Positions 21,444 through 27,398 of a stretch of DNA of 27,690 nucleotides are shown here, in pieces. The notes beneath the pieces were generated by a model. The model was given only the letters and a program-made list of their open reading frames with translations. It was not told the origin of the DNA and did not search any database. The stretch's first letter is position 1, and every line of letters starts with the position of its first letter. Location: positions 1-27,690 of the forward strand of contig NPFB01000087.1 of NCBI GenBank assembly GCA_014084085.1, read 5' to 3'. The stretch is from Hondaea fermentalgiana. Taxonomy: Eukaryota; Sar; Bigyra; Thraustochytrida; Thraustochytriidae. Made by a program: the position numbers and the translations under genes.

Positions 21444-24257
21444 TTACTTGGCTTTTGGGGCTTTCGGACTGAGAGCATCTGGGGCTTTAGGACTGAGCGC
21501 ATCCGGAACCGAGGTAACCGAGGCAACCGAGGAATTCCGCATGCCACCCACAACGGAGGATCCGCGCGGCTTAACGGAGGAGAGGAACTTTCCACGAAAC
21601 GCAAATGCGGCCAGGGAAGACTTGTTGCGGACATCGATCTCGCGTCGCAACACAAAGACCTTGTCACGGAGTTTATTGAGCTTTTTGGACTCGGTATCGA
21701 GCTCCTTCTTGAGCTGGTCGACTCGATTGCCTTGTTTCTGCGCCGAGTCCACGAGGCGGTCGAGTAAGGCATCGATGTTGAGCGGTTGCTCTTCTTTGAC
21801 AACGTTGTACTTGCCGCTGCTCGAATTTTCCTCGTCTCCGTCGATGACGCTTGGAGCGATCGACGCCACGGTCCGCGTATCCCCTACGCCAGGCGAAGAC
21901 GTCGAGAGACTTAGCACAGATCGCAGTACAGAGCGCACAGAGTGACGACGAAAGATTCCACGAATCGATTGGTAGCACGGTATCATGACCATGTGAGGAA
22001 TCAAAACCATCTCGGAGAGGATGAGAAGAAGAGCGCCAATCATATTTTTGGTCGTGGCCGTCACCTTTTCGTCAATTGCGCCCCAAATGAGAAAGGCCAC
22101 ACCCGTATAGATGACCCCGAGCGTGACAATGATCCATTGCAATCGCGAATTATTGAAGCGTGAAGGCAGCGACTCGGTTTGCAAAGCTACCCAGCCTGCG
22201 TACATTAGAGGAGGGACCTTGATGGAAGTCAATGCGAGCATAAAGGGTCGTGCGCTGACGTCCGTCGTCGTGAGGCAGAAACGTTGCGTATGGTTCTTGA
22301 TGTGCGGCTTGGTGACGACGAGCATCGCCACGGCAACGATGAGGTCCGGCAGTGAAACAAGCACAAGCTGTTTGATCAAGCGCCTTGAGGTGAACTTGAC
22401 GCGCTTCATTGCCATATACTTGTACAGGCGCACGAGAAAGGCGGACTTGATGAAAAAGGTTGACAAAACCAGGTGCATCCCCACCAGGGGGAAAAGGACC
22501 TCAAGATGGCACGTCACGGTCTCCTCCGTTGCCGAGAGGTGGTGCGAGTTTTCAGGGATCTCATCGAGCGGTGTCGAAAACGTTGCCAAGAAAATACCGG
22601 CCAGACCAACCAGAAGACAACCCAGACACTGGAAGACGAGAACGTCGAGCCGGTTGGAGCGCACGACTGGTGATTTGCGCATGACGAAAAAGATGATCAA
22701 GGCCAAGCCCGAGATCAAGACTGTGACGGACCCGGCCACAAAGGAGAGCGCGCGAAGAAAGAAGCCCATGTCGCCTGTGTCGAGCTTTTCCTCGACGTTC
22801 AGAATCACGGGCGAGACGTCTAGGTCTGTTGTGACATCGAAAAGTTCCAATAGCAGCGTCACAATCTCTTGCCCCGGGATTTCGAGAAGCCAGTACTTGC
22901 TATCGTCGCTAAGAACGCTTGCGTTGCCGTGCAGATTGACGCCGTTTCCGAAGAGAGACCACGCCGGCGAAAATGCGGTGACGCGGTCTTCGAGTACGTG
23001 GTCAACAAGGAGAAAGGAGAGCGTTTCGTCTGTCTCCGTCCATGAACCACAATTGCGGACGCGATCGCACGGCTCGCCCAGGTCGAGCAAAAATTCTTCA
23101 GTCGAATAGTCGGCAGCTCTGGCAATTTGGCGCAGGTTTGCAGAGTCAAGAGCGTACATTTCGACTGGCAGCGACTCGCGACACGGGGAGCAGATGCACT
23201 CGTAGTCGTCCGGACAGGCGAAACGGCTGTCCTCGGCCTCGAGAGCGGCGCAGTGCGCCGCAATCTCTGCCTTGGGGTACTTTGCGTAGCCTGATGGGCA
23301 AATGAGCGTTTCAATCTCGCTGGAAGAAAAGCGGCATGTTTCCCAACCCGTGTGCACGTCCGTGTGCAAGATTCCCAGGTCTCTTTGCACAATTGCCTCG
23401 TGGTGATACGAGGCGGGTGGGCCAAACTTGAAGTAGCCTCCGTCCGCCAGCTCGGCACTTTCATTGAGATTCAGACGAAGAACCGCCTCGAGGACCGCTT
23501 CTTGAACGTCTTCCGCGACGTGTGGAAATGCCATGAAGGCCCATTCGCTGTACAAATCAGTGCTGTGCTCATACACAAAGTCGTCGTCGACTTCCCCAAC
23601 GATCTTGAACTGACTTGCGTCGGCGAGCTGACCTTCGCGCACCAATGTCTCAAGGGTGTCCATTCTCACGAAGCCGACATCGGCAGCGCCGCTTTGAAGA
23701 TCGGCGACCACATTGAATTGACTGCCCGTGAATCTGAGCTGCTTTGCCGTCGTGAAAGGGTGAACCTCGTGATGTATCATCTGTTCGATTTGGGCCTGGG
23801 CGCCTCCGAAGCTCTTGAGCGAGACCGCAGAGATGACCTTGCCGTCAATGTCTTCAAGGGTGTTGATCTCGTCATTATCGGCACGCACAATAATTTTTCC
23901 AGCGTACTGATGAAGCGTGACACCACCATGGATCTTTTGCAGCGTAGCGATGGGAGCTGCGTGAGCGACGGCGCTGGCACAGGTCTGGACAAAAGGGTTG
24001 GCAATTAGAAAGTCCACCTTTTCGTCTTGAATGCAATCGAGAACTTGCGAGTACTCGAGCGCCTCAAATGCGATGGAAACGTCGTCGAGAAAGGCGTGAA
24101 GAGACGCGGTGAGATTCTCGACGAGTGTCCGATTCCAAAGTTGTGTGGTTTTTTCAACGCCCTTGCTCGCAAGCACGCCGACGCGAAGTGTCGAGGCTGC
24201 TTTGCACGGGACGTTCGCGTATGCAGCAAGCGCCGCGAGCAACAGAAAGAGACGCAT
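21444..24257 (-). CDS. chimeric receptor: PhnD/TtrS-like binding domain + class C GPCR seven-helix domain
   Basis: A 937-residue uninterrupted frame. Residues 1-21 form a signal peptide. Residues about 23-300 resemble a type II periplasmic-binding domain of the PhnD/TtrS-like class: LRVGVLASKGVEK (24-36), VDFLIANPF (81-89), SLKSFGGAQ (146-154), RFTGSQFNVVADLQSGAADVG (175-195). A segment with nine cysteines follows (308-403), then an unassigned stretch to about 497. Seven hydrophobic helices lie at about 503-526, 538-560, 586-610, 630-649, 670-692, 707-727 and 738-760. The loop RKSPVVRSNR after helix 1, C583 at helix 3, C661 in extracellular loop 2 and KVPPLMYAGWVALQT in helix 5 match class C (GABA-B-like) receptors. 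The cytoplasmic tail has a coiled coil (about 825-877) and ends with a duplicated PDALSPKA. Surface sensing of a small anion or other ligand with G-protein coupling is inferred. Ligand and partner are unknown. Confidence 0.88.
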   Translation of the reverse strand: MRLFLLLAALAAYANVPCKAASTLRVGVLASKGVEKTTQLWNRTLVENLTASLHAFLDDVSIAFEALEYSQVLDCIQDEKVDFLIANPFVQTCASAVAHAAPIATLQKIHGGVTLHQYAGKIIVRADNDEINTLEDIDGKVISAVSLKSFGGAQAQIEQMIHHEVHPFTTAKQLRFTGSQFNVVADLQSGAADVGFVRMDTLETLVREGQLADASQFKIVGEVDDDFVYEHSTDLYSEWAFMAFPHVAEDVQEAVLEAVLRLNLNESAELADGGYFKFGPPASYHHEAIVQRDLGILHTDVHTGWETCRFSSSEIETLICPSGYAKYPKAEIAAHCAALEAEDSRFACPDDYECICSPCRESLPVEMYALDSANLRQIARAADYSTEEFLLDLGEPCDRVRNCGSWTETDETLSFLLVDHVLEDRVTAFSPAWSLFGNGVNLHGNASVLSDDSKYWLLEIPGQEIVTLLLELFDVTTDLDVSPVILNVEEKLDTGDMGFFLRALSFVAGSVTVLISGLALIIFFVMRKSPVVRSNRLDVLVFQCLGCLLVGLAGIFLATFSTPLDEIPENSHHLSATEETVTCHLEVLFPLVGMHLVLSTFFIKSAFLVRLYKYMAMKRVKFTSRRLIKQLVLVSLPDLIVAVAMLVVTKPHIKNHTQRFCLTTTDVSARPFMLALTSIKVPPLMYAGWVALQTESLPSRFNNSRLQWIIVTLGVIYTGVAFLIWGAIDEKVTATTKNMIGALLLILSEMVLIPHMVMIPCYQSIRGIFRRHSVRSVLRSVLSLSTSSPGVGDTRTVASIAPSVIDGDEENSSSGKYNVVKEEQPLNIDALLDRLVDSAQKQGNRVDQLKKELDTESKKLNKLRDKVFVLRREIDVRNKSSLAAFAFRGKFLSSVKPRGSSVVGGMRNSSVASVTSVPDALSPKAPDALSPKAPKAK

Positions 24258-26090: not shown

Positions 26091-27140
26091 ATAACCAGCA
26101 TTTCATTGCTGCGAAAGTTATTGGTCCTTGCTGTTGCGGGTGCACAATGGTCAGAAGGGAAGCACGGTTGTCCATCTATCGCTGAAGCAAGTCGCACAAC
26201 GTGAGGGGGGGACCCGCTCGTTTTTCTGTCTTTTGCATCGTCTGGCCGCGAGACGTTGGACAGACTGGCCTAGAGGCGAAGTCGACTCTGACGCCATGAT
26301 AGCGTTGATCATCATGTCATAGCCTTTCTCTTTCTCGAAAAGACCAACTCTCGCTCGCTCGGTCGGTCGCTCGGCAGCGGCCGTGGCTCGCAGTCGATCG
26401 ATTGAAGTATGCCACCGGACATGTTCAGCTTGGCGAGGTGCAATCAAGTGTCGAGATAAAGCCATCAAGCGTCGAGATGAAGCTCATGTGGTCAGTCACT
26501 GTCAGCTGCAGCAGCTGCAGCTGGCAGGCGCCGAGTTTATTATAAGATCAATGGGTGTCTCTGAGCTTTCCAAGTCGAAGCTCCGTCGTCGTGACATCCT
26601 TGTTTTCCTTCCCGTTCCTACTCTTTTCTTGAAGCTCCGTGGAGCCTGGCAGTACTGGATGCTACGTAACGTACAATCGCAATCCCTTCTTGTTACGTGG
26701 CACGGAAAAATAGACTATACACGCAATTGGGCACATGCAGCAAGCCAGCCAGCTAGCCCGGCAGCCCGCCCGGTGTCACTACTAACAGGCGATTCATCAA
26801 CACCCTCGTATGCATCCAGCTCCAAAGCGGCGCCTCAGATCCCTCGTTGCCTGCACAGCTGCTGCCACGGCACAGGTCGACATCCTGTCACCATCCCGGC
26901 CCGGACCCAGACCCGGATCCGGACCCCGTGCACCCATCCTCGTGCAGTTTCCAAGCGGCAGCGGGTGCCGTCGCCACCTTCCGTTGCCCTAATGTCACTT
27001 TTACTGTCACTCTGGCAACGAGCTTGCGCGCGTGCGTCGTGATCAAAGCCCCAGCAGGTAGCCGCAGCTGCAGGCAGCTGCAGCTTCATCCTCATGCACC
27101 TGGAGATTGGTGGACGATGGTGTGGATCTCTCGCTTGCGC

Positions 27141-27158
27141 ATCCATCCATCCATCCAT

Positions 27159-27189
<31 letters not shown>

Positions 27190-27208
27190 CGCGTCCGTCC
27201 ATCCATCC
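27141..27208. repeat. (ATCC)n microsatellite
   Basis: Eleven perfect ATCC units (27141-27184) are followed by imperfect GTCC/ATCC units to about 27208. Confidence 0.95.
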
Positions 27209-27398
27209 TTACGCGGGTCCATCCAACCTCGCTCCCGACCCCGCTGCACCCGGCGCAGCAACCTGAAGAAGCTAGCCCGCTCGGCGTGTGGGAAATGCGC
27301 GTGCTGTCGCTGCGCAACTTGAAGAAGTCGTGTCGCGGAAGGGGCGGTCCCCGCGAGTCACCAACCAGGTTGCACTTGCTATTTATTTGTCGGCAACG

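Follow-up and report, generated by a model that had tools for sequence, protein, structure and literature searches.

The gene and its locus

The window analyzed here, positions 1–27,690 of contig NPFB01000087.1 from the thraustochytrid Hondaea fermentalgiana (27,690 nucleotides in full), carries on its minus strand the gene for a predicted receptor that joins a bacterial-type solute-binding domain to the seven-transmembrane (7TM) core of a class C G-protein-coupled receptor (GPCR). The open reading frame (ORF; 21444–24257, minus strand) has 937 codons, runs uninterrupted from ATG to TAA, requires no intron and has an in-frame stop immediately upstream. A sequence-only reading of the window had described this combination in one gene from a set of short motifs, each of which is present in the 937-amino-acid (aa) translation. 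The combination is confirmed by profile matches over cut-off for PF12974 and PF00003 and by predicted structures whose Foldseek matches give a type II binding fold for the front half and a class C 7TM fold for the back half. Two outcomes that the sequence-only reading had named as refuting it, missing Pfam matches and an ectodomain fold unlike that of type II binding proteins, did not occur. The signal peptide named in that reading also finds support: a hydrophobic stretch spans residues 3–21, and hydropathy together with a helix in the model make residues 1–20 a likely signal peptide.

The contig that holds the gene measures 152 kb and belongs to a 36-Mb assembly of 238 contigs. The adjoining ORFs, whose translations were judged by eye, presumably encode a Rab GTPase and the beta chain of phenylalanyl-tRNA synthetase, and the receptor locus is therefore taken as eukaryotic nuclear. 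Codon usage is equal in the binding domain and in the remainder of the gene (chi-square 39.7, 41 degrees of freedom, p 0.53); with usage this homogeneous across the junction, the fusion does not look recent. The same homogeneity, within a single ORF, speaks against an artefact of assembly or gene modelling in which two unrelated genes were fused. A second protein, P0002, has the same domain order and a conserved ectodomain–7TM junction; as it carries both domains and shares 56% identity across 98% of the query length, it argues against an assembly chimera and against two separate genes. Four more paralogues carry other type II binding domains, each over cut-off, on a 7tm_3 domain, and an artefact is hardly credible.

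A type II binding domain on a cysteine-rich stalk

The front half matches PF12974 (Phosphonate-bd) at residues 45–267 with an E-value of 2.5e-26 and 93 bits, against a Pfam cut-off of 27. Its predicted model, in which ten-residue blocks of the predicted local distance difference test (pLDDT) mostly exceed 90, resembles PtxB, ArrX, PhnD and AioX in Foldseek and VIA comparisons; the Pfam score and the type II fold place it in the PF12974 family. The best NCBIfam models, namely TtrS (70.2 bits against an equivalog cut-off of 750), the phosphate/phosphite/phosphonate-binding subfamily (43 bits) and PhnD (35.6 bits against an equivalog cut-off of 261.1), all score below their cut-offs, so the front half is a relative of TtrS, PhnD and the subfamily and a member of none. 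The Pfam scan gave no HisKA match in the receptor, and a phmmer search with the single receptor protein against PDB sequences reached a best E-value of only 0.1. PtxB, ArrX, AioX and Escherichia coli PhnD are soluble and share 12–18% identity with the receptor in structural alignments.

The binding domain is followed by a linker with nine cysteines, all retained in P0002, and by a beta-rich juxtamembrane stretch (Table 1). The cysteine count is not unique, as paralogue L052 also has nine within the 205 residues preceding its 7TM domain. Homology of the linker to NCD3G was considered and rejected, there being no match in the Pfam scan; neither PF01094 (ANF_receptor) nor PF07562 (NCD3G) matches the receptor at E-values up to 10, which sets it outside the mGlu/CaSR/T1R type. 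The nine-cysteine linker and the cytoplasmic coiled coil described below were not mentioned in the sequence-only reading.

A class C core with altered switches

The back half matches PF00003 (7tm_3) at residues 507–750 (E 5.3e-14; 52.9 bits against a Pfam cut-off of 33.5). Seven transmembrane (TM) helices are predicted, and the predicted structure resembles the 7TM domains of GPR156, GABA-B and mGlu, as expected of a class C fold. Switch residues were counted in an alignment of 21 of 23 paralogues (L048 and L051 omitted) with the two receptors; positions 3.50, 3.53 and 6.35 were assigned by this alignment and by mGlu motifs. C583 and C661, the pair joining TM3 to extracellular loop 2 (ECL2) and cited earlier as a class C hallmark, are invariant in all 23 aligned sequences, and K3.50 (K604) is Lys in 22 and Arg in one. 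Three other features are replaced. Position 6.35, which holds Asn in both receptors, is Glu in 20 of 21 paralogues and Asp in one; position 3.53 is Phe in both receptors (F607) and Arg in 18/21; and the TM7 Pro-Lys site, found in 15/21 paralogues by eye, reads Pro-His here (P754–H755) and Pro-Asn in P0002.

The class C ionic lock is given as K3.50–E6.35 in the available text of PMC7069277 and PMC9360005; its removal is reported to raise basal activity in mGlu5 and to lower activity in GABA-B. The lock acid is reported for mGlu5, the GABA-B subunit GB2 and GPR158 in the portions available, and is missing from the receptor. With three class C switch features altered, the usual G-protein coupling cannot be assumed. 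These replacements, at positions so uniform among the paralogues, sit poorly with an ordinary ligand-gated class C receptor that tolerates the switch changes and couples to heterotrimeric G proteins in the usual way. Such a receptor is nevertheless a possible, if less favored, reading: the fold is class C, K3.50 and the disulfide cysteines are retained, the genome has 11 G-alpha matches over cut-off, and intracellular loops 2 and 3 (ICL2, ICL3) are the best conserved of the regions compared. As a side observation, the G-alpha matches include three each on contigs C26 and C91, and one (L029) includes an in-frame TGA.

Conservation in a second receptor

A search of ~5.8 billion proteins, with scoring of the 7997 candidates that had the most words in common with the query, returned P0002 (1030 aa) as the only full-length homologue, with the same two domains (7tm_3 score 54.6 bits); as the search requires identical 5-residue words, more distant receptors may exist. 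The other protein returned, P0003, is of bacterial sensor type. When the 7TM part was used as the query, the window protein and P0002 were the only sequences at E<=0.001 (6045 candidates), while the binding domain retrieved both receptors and five proteins with bacterial signalling domains (3170 candidates).

Identity between the two receptors was computed over 20 hand-drawn regions. The two best-conserved regions face the cytoplasm, namely the end of TM3 with ICL2 (21/23 residues identical) and the ICL3 region (19/21), which argues for a kept intracellular partner. TM5 (16/20), extracellular loop 3 (8/10) and the coiled coil (51/64, residues 826–889) come next, and the binding domain is identical at 138/279 positions. 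By a simple heptad score of our own construction, the coiled coil reaches 0.67 in the receptor and 0.63 in P0002, and other scored paralogues stay at or below 0.46.

The loss of three switch features, and a TM7 with just 6/23 residues identical to P0002, could also be expected of a receptor that is decaying or serves as a decoy, its 7TM domain having ceased to signal. This is quite improbable, as positions 3.53 and 6.35 are changed alike in both receptors, the residues of ICL2 and ICL3 are kept in the proportions given above, and the frame has neither frameshift nor stop.

Bacterial relatives of the binding domain

Prokaryotic relatives were sought in one genome per species (84,980 species), and loci were recovered through patterns spanning SFGG.. 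and ..ST.LY.EW; 321 stretches fit the pattern, and of the 269 that encode a relative, the 80 best were retained. Conservation within the two motifs is partly by construction, because the loci were chosen by those patterns. The best 80 of the 269 loci derive mostly from metagenome-assembled genomes, many of Proteobacteria and some of cyanobacteria, spirochaetes and others. Longer proteins (339–1158 aa) make up 61 of the 80, and 59 of these have a hydrophobic helix just behind the domain, beginning at residue 270–400; the remaining 19 are lone binding proteins of 281–302 aa. A Pfam scan of 55 proteins (49 of the 80 loci, P0003–P0006 and the two receptors, 53 being of bacterial type) gave HisKA (22), GGDEF (17), EAL (10), MCPsignal (7) and HD_5 (6). 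In TtrS and other bacterial Phosphonate-bd sensors, a homologous binding domain stands directly before a membrane helix, as in the receptor, but the output is a histidine kinase, cyclase, phosphodiesterase or methyl-accepting chemotaxis protein rather than a 7TM domain.

The binding domains of 74 of the 80 loci (L092, L110, L113, L116, L123 and L127 omitted) were aligned with those of the receptors. In the resulting 76-row tree, the receptor pair lies inside a 20-row set with 18 sensors (Shimodaira–Hasegawa-like approximate likelihood ratio test, SH-aLRT, 99), the nearest row by tree path is a Gallionellales sensor, and the 16 lone binding proteins cluster together, apart from the rest. Plasmid matches comprise 34 records, and the 15 listed include eight sensor histidine kinases, all from Azospirillum, and two entries annotated ‘ATP-binding protein’; a scan of viral contigs found no relative. 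The nearest bacterial domains found are mostly those of membrane sensors (kinases, cyclases) rather than of lone binding proteins, in keeping with the earlier proposal that the module came from a bacterial sensor. Within this sample, picked by two sequence patterns, a sensor origin is better supported than a transporter origin.

The sensor kinship of the nearest relatives found bears on whether the protein could be transport-related, the binding domain capturing a nutrient and the 7TM domain aiding its uptake. The domain family includes binding proteins of ABC transporters, and Plasmodiophora fusions of 7tm3 with SBP/PBP domains were named novel transporters in the accessible text of PMC4815078. 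A role in uptake is nonetheless unlikely here, given that the 7TM domain has a GPCR fold and that the intracellular loops and coiled coil are conserved.

The ligand pocket

In the available text of PMC5908839, the pockets of AioX and PhnD have in common two Tyr, two Ser and one His. The corresponding positions in the receptor were assigned through sequence alignment with three PtxB proteins and ArrX rather than from superposed coordinates; mapped in this way, three of the five oxyanion-pocket positions are retained (Y69, Y118 and S149). The pocket His and second Ser of PtxB, ArrX, AioX and PhnD are both replaced. P0002 is identical to the receptor at all five sites (Tyr69, Tyr118, Ser149, Gly151 and Gln180). 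Aligned in this manner, the receptors bear the tyrosines of oxyanion-binding proteins on a sensor-type scaffold, in which R198 is kept (Table 1). The pattern favors an anionic ligand but proves none. Q91, a candidate for one of the Tyr positions, was dropped, as the PtxB/ArrX alignment puts the Tyr at Y118.

Table 1. Features of the receptor gene in the window (residue numbers refer to the 937-aa protein).
Feature	Position	Strand	Basis
Whole gene, 937-aa PhnD/TtrS-type class C receptor	21444..24257	−	single ORF, two Pfam domains, full-length homologue P0002
N-terminal hydrophobic segment, likely signal peptide, residues 1–20	24198..24257	−	hydropathy peak 3–21; model helix 2–14
Type II solute-binding (Phosphonate-bd) domain, residues 22–300	23358..24194	−	PF12974 45–267; Foldseek/VIA matches
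Y69, site of a PtxB/ArrX oxyanion-pocket Tyr (by alignment)	24051..24053	−	bacterial rows: F 56/74, Y 9/74
Y118, site of the second pocket Tyr (by alignment)	23904..23906	−	Tyr in three PtxB and ArrX; F in 74/74 bacterial rows
S149, site of a pocket Ser at a helix start (by alignment)	23811..23813	−	Ser in three PtxB, ArrX and 65/74 bacterial rows
R198, absent from three PtxB	23664..23666	−	kept in 74/74 bacterial rows
Linker, residues 301–410, nine cysteines (308, 320, 336, 348, 354, 356, 359, 397, 403)	23028..23357	−	low-confidence model
Beta-rich juxtamembrane stretch, residues 411–494	22776..23027	−	model strands, moderate-low confidence; 51/84 identical to P0002
Class C seven-helix domain, residues 495–760	21978..22775	−	PF00003 507–750; seven helices; structure matches
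N703, class C ionic-lock acid position 6.35	22149..22151	−	Asn in the receptor (P0001) and P0002
Cytoplasmic coiled coil, residues 828–889	21591..21776	−	long helix; pLDDT blocks 78–87 over ~830–879

Elsewhere in the window, at ~27100–27250, reiterated codons for Ile-His-Pro-Ser and Trp-Met-Asp-Gly form a simple tandem repeat.

The class C repertoire of the genome

The genome has 24 PF00003 matches, this receptor included, and five of these class C genes have a type II binding domain over cut-off: Phosphonate-bd in this gene, PBP_like_2 in three (L032, L035, L038) and OpuAC in one (L051), a further OpuAC match being below cut-off (L052). ANF_receptor and/or Peripla_BP_6 occur in eight (seven over cut-off; L047 below). 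sCache_2 is found just over cut-off in L030 and is missing from its 7TM relatives L031 and L036; three genes have PT repeats or no known domain (L034, L044, L045), and four have a short domain-free N-terminus (L046, L048, L049, L050). No partner with a strong coiled coil, as a GABA-B-like obligate heterodimer would need, emerged for the receptor among the scored paralogues, the tail of L051 being masked. In a tree of 23 7TM sequences, the PhnD pair stands apart from the PBP_like_2 receptors, and a common clade of the two is rejected at the borderline by the approximately unbiased test (p-AU 0.042). As the clade was defined after inspection of the tree and the p-value is borderline, separate acquisition of the two ectodomain types is suggested, not shown.

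Several of these genes deserve mention in their own right. The PBP_like_2 family includes the phosphate-binding PstS, which makes L032, L035 and L038 (contigs C232, C172 and C188) candidate phosphate-sensing GPCRs. A fourth PBP_like_2 match (C205:102775–103713, minus strand; E 1.2e-23) lies in an 851-aa frame outside the 7tm_3 list. In L051 (C77:20892–21347), OpuAC, a glycine-betaine-binding domain, precedes a partial 7tm_3 in a 3431-aa open frame that is partly masked. L030, L031 and L036, whose 7TM domains are close, all lie on contig C23. Cache domains on Glutamate GPCRs are restricted to animals among the opisthokonts screened, according to the available text of PMC12716839.

Precedents and related systems

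The general architecture, in which a class C 7TM domain bears a type II binding domain, is already published, and the uniqueness implied by the sequence-only reading does not hold. In the sections available, Krishnan et al. 2012 (PMC3251606) describe fungal class C receptors with LysR_substrate, PBP_like_2, OpuAC and SBP_bac_1, and PMC5168858 finds type II SBP domains on about half of the gut-fungal class C receptors. These are like the receptor in pairing a type II ectodomain with a class C 7TM domain, but use other binding families, sugar-type in gut fungi, and those sections do not name PF12974. Seven proteins of Plasmodiophora brassicae, as far as the accessible text of PMC4815078 goes, likewise combine 7tm3 with a prokaryotic substrate-binding domain in a protist; the domains named there are SBP_bac_1 and PBP_like_2, not PF12974. 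Diverse ectodomains have been described on non-animal Glutamate receptors (PMC12716839), and thraustochytrids as enriched in GPCR domains including IPR017978 (PMC6050695), each in the available portion of the source. Among the matches listed from the open-licence literature, in the text available, none was found to describe a class C receptor that carries PF12974.

GABA-B, GPR156, GPR158 and mGlu have the 7TM fold in common with the receptor. To our knowledge, none of them has a PF12974-type ectodomain, theirs being a type I flytrap, Cache or none. GPR158, in the partial text available, has a cytoplasmic coiled coil, as the receptor does. What is new here is the PhnD/TtrS-type domain, the conserved cytoplasmic coiled coil and the altered class C switches. 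The earlier interpretation stands in part: a type II domain with mostly bacterial-sensor kin does sit on a class C core, and the implied singularity falls to these precedents.

A proposed mode of action

The domains, the predicted folds, the residue changes and the recurrence of the complete architecture in P0002 were computed directly. From these we infer export, ligand class, dimerisation and output, and favor, with a probability of roughly 0.6, a cell-surface chemoreceptor in which a bacterial sensor-type Phosphonate-bd domain is joined to a class C core, with a small-anion ligand and a non-standard output. The exported binding domain would close on a small, probably anionic ligand, and the beta-rich stalk with its nine cysteines would relay this closure to a 7TM dimer, with the output possibly exiting through the highly conserved ICL2 and ICL3. 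This output is probably non-standard, because K3.50 and the TM3–ECL2 cysteines are retained but other residues stand in for the 6.35 acid, Arg 3.53 and the TM7 Pro-Lys; it may consist in altered basal coupling, or the receptor may be a ligand-binding subunit held to a partner by the coiled coil. A bolder version is tentative and, on balance, doubtful: the first known GPCR for a small inorganic or organo-phosphorus/sulfur-type oxyanion, built on the captured input module of a bacterial sensor and bearing both pocket tyrosines of oxyanion-binding proteins, with an output independent of the class C ionic lock and with the coiled coil tethering it as the sensing half of a receptor complex. In this version it would belong to a protist toolkit that sets several bacterial binding-domain families on one 7TM core.

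Several observations weigh against this chemoreceptor. The pocket His is replaced by Gln180 (bacterial rows at this position: His 56/74, Gln 17/74) and the second pocket Ser by Gly151; with the pocket only partly retained, the receptor may bind something other than an oxyanion. The stem of the receptors is long in the binding-domain tree, whose root is unplaced, and long in the 7TM tree too, and five of the 15 listed plasmid records are annotated ‘PhnD/SsuA/transferrin family substrate-binding protein’ rather than as sensors. Loss of the ionic lock has no fixed meaning, since the effects described for mGlu5 and GABA-B are opposed. TM1 (11/31 identical), like TM7, is poorly conserved between the pair, and as two such receptors were found, the conservation figures rest on one pair. 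The lack of a strong coiled-coil partner among the scored paralogues counts on the same side.

Implications

Within one genome, class C inputs can be swapped for bacterial-type modules of several families, with type I, PBP_like_2, OpuAC, Phosphonate-bd and possibly Cache domains placed on class C cores. The receptor uncouples the class C fold from its usual switches and offers a natural test of whether the ionic lock is necessary, and its ligand class is directly testable on the soluble domain. An oxyanion ligand, if true, would provide a GPCR route by which a protist senses phosphorus or sulfur compounds.

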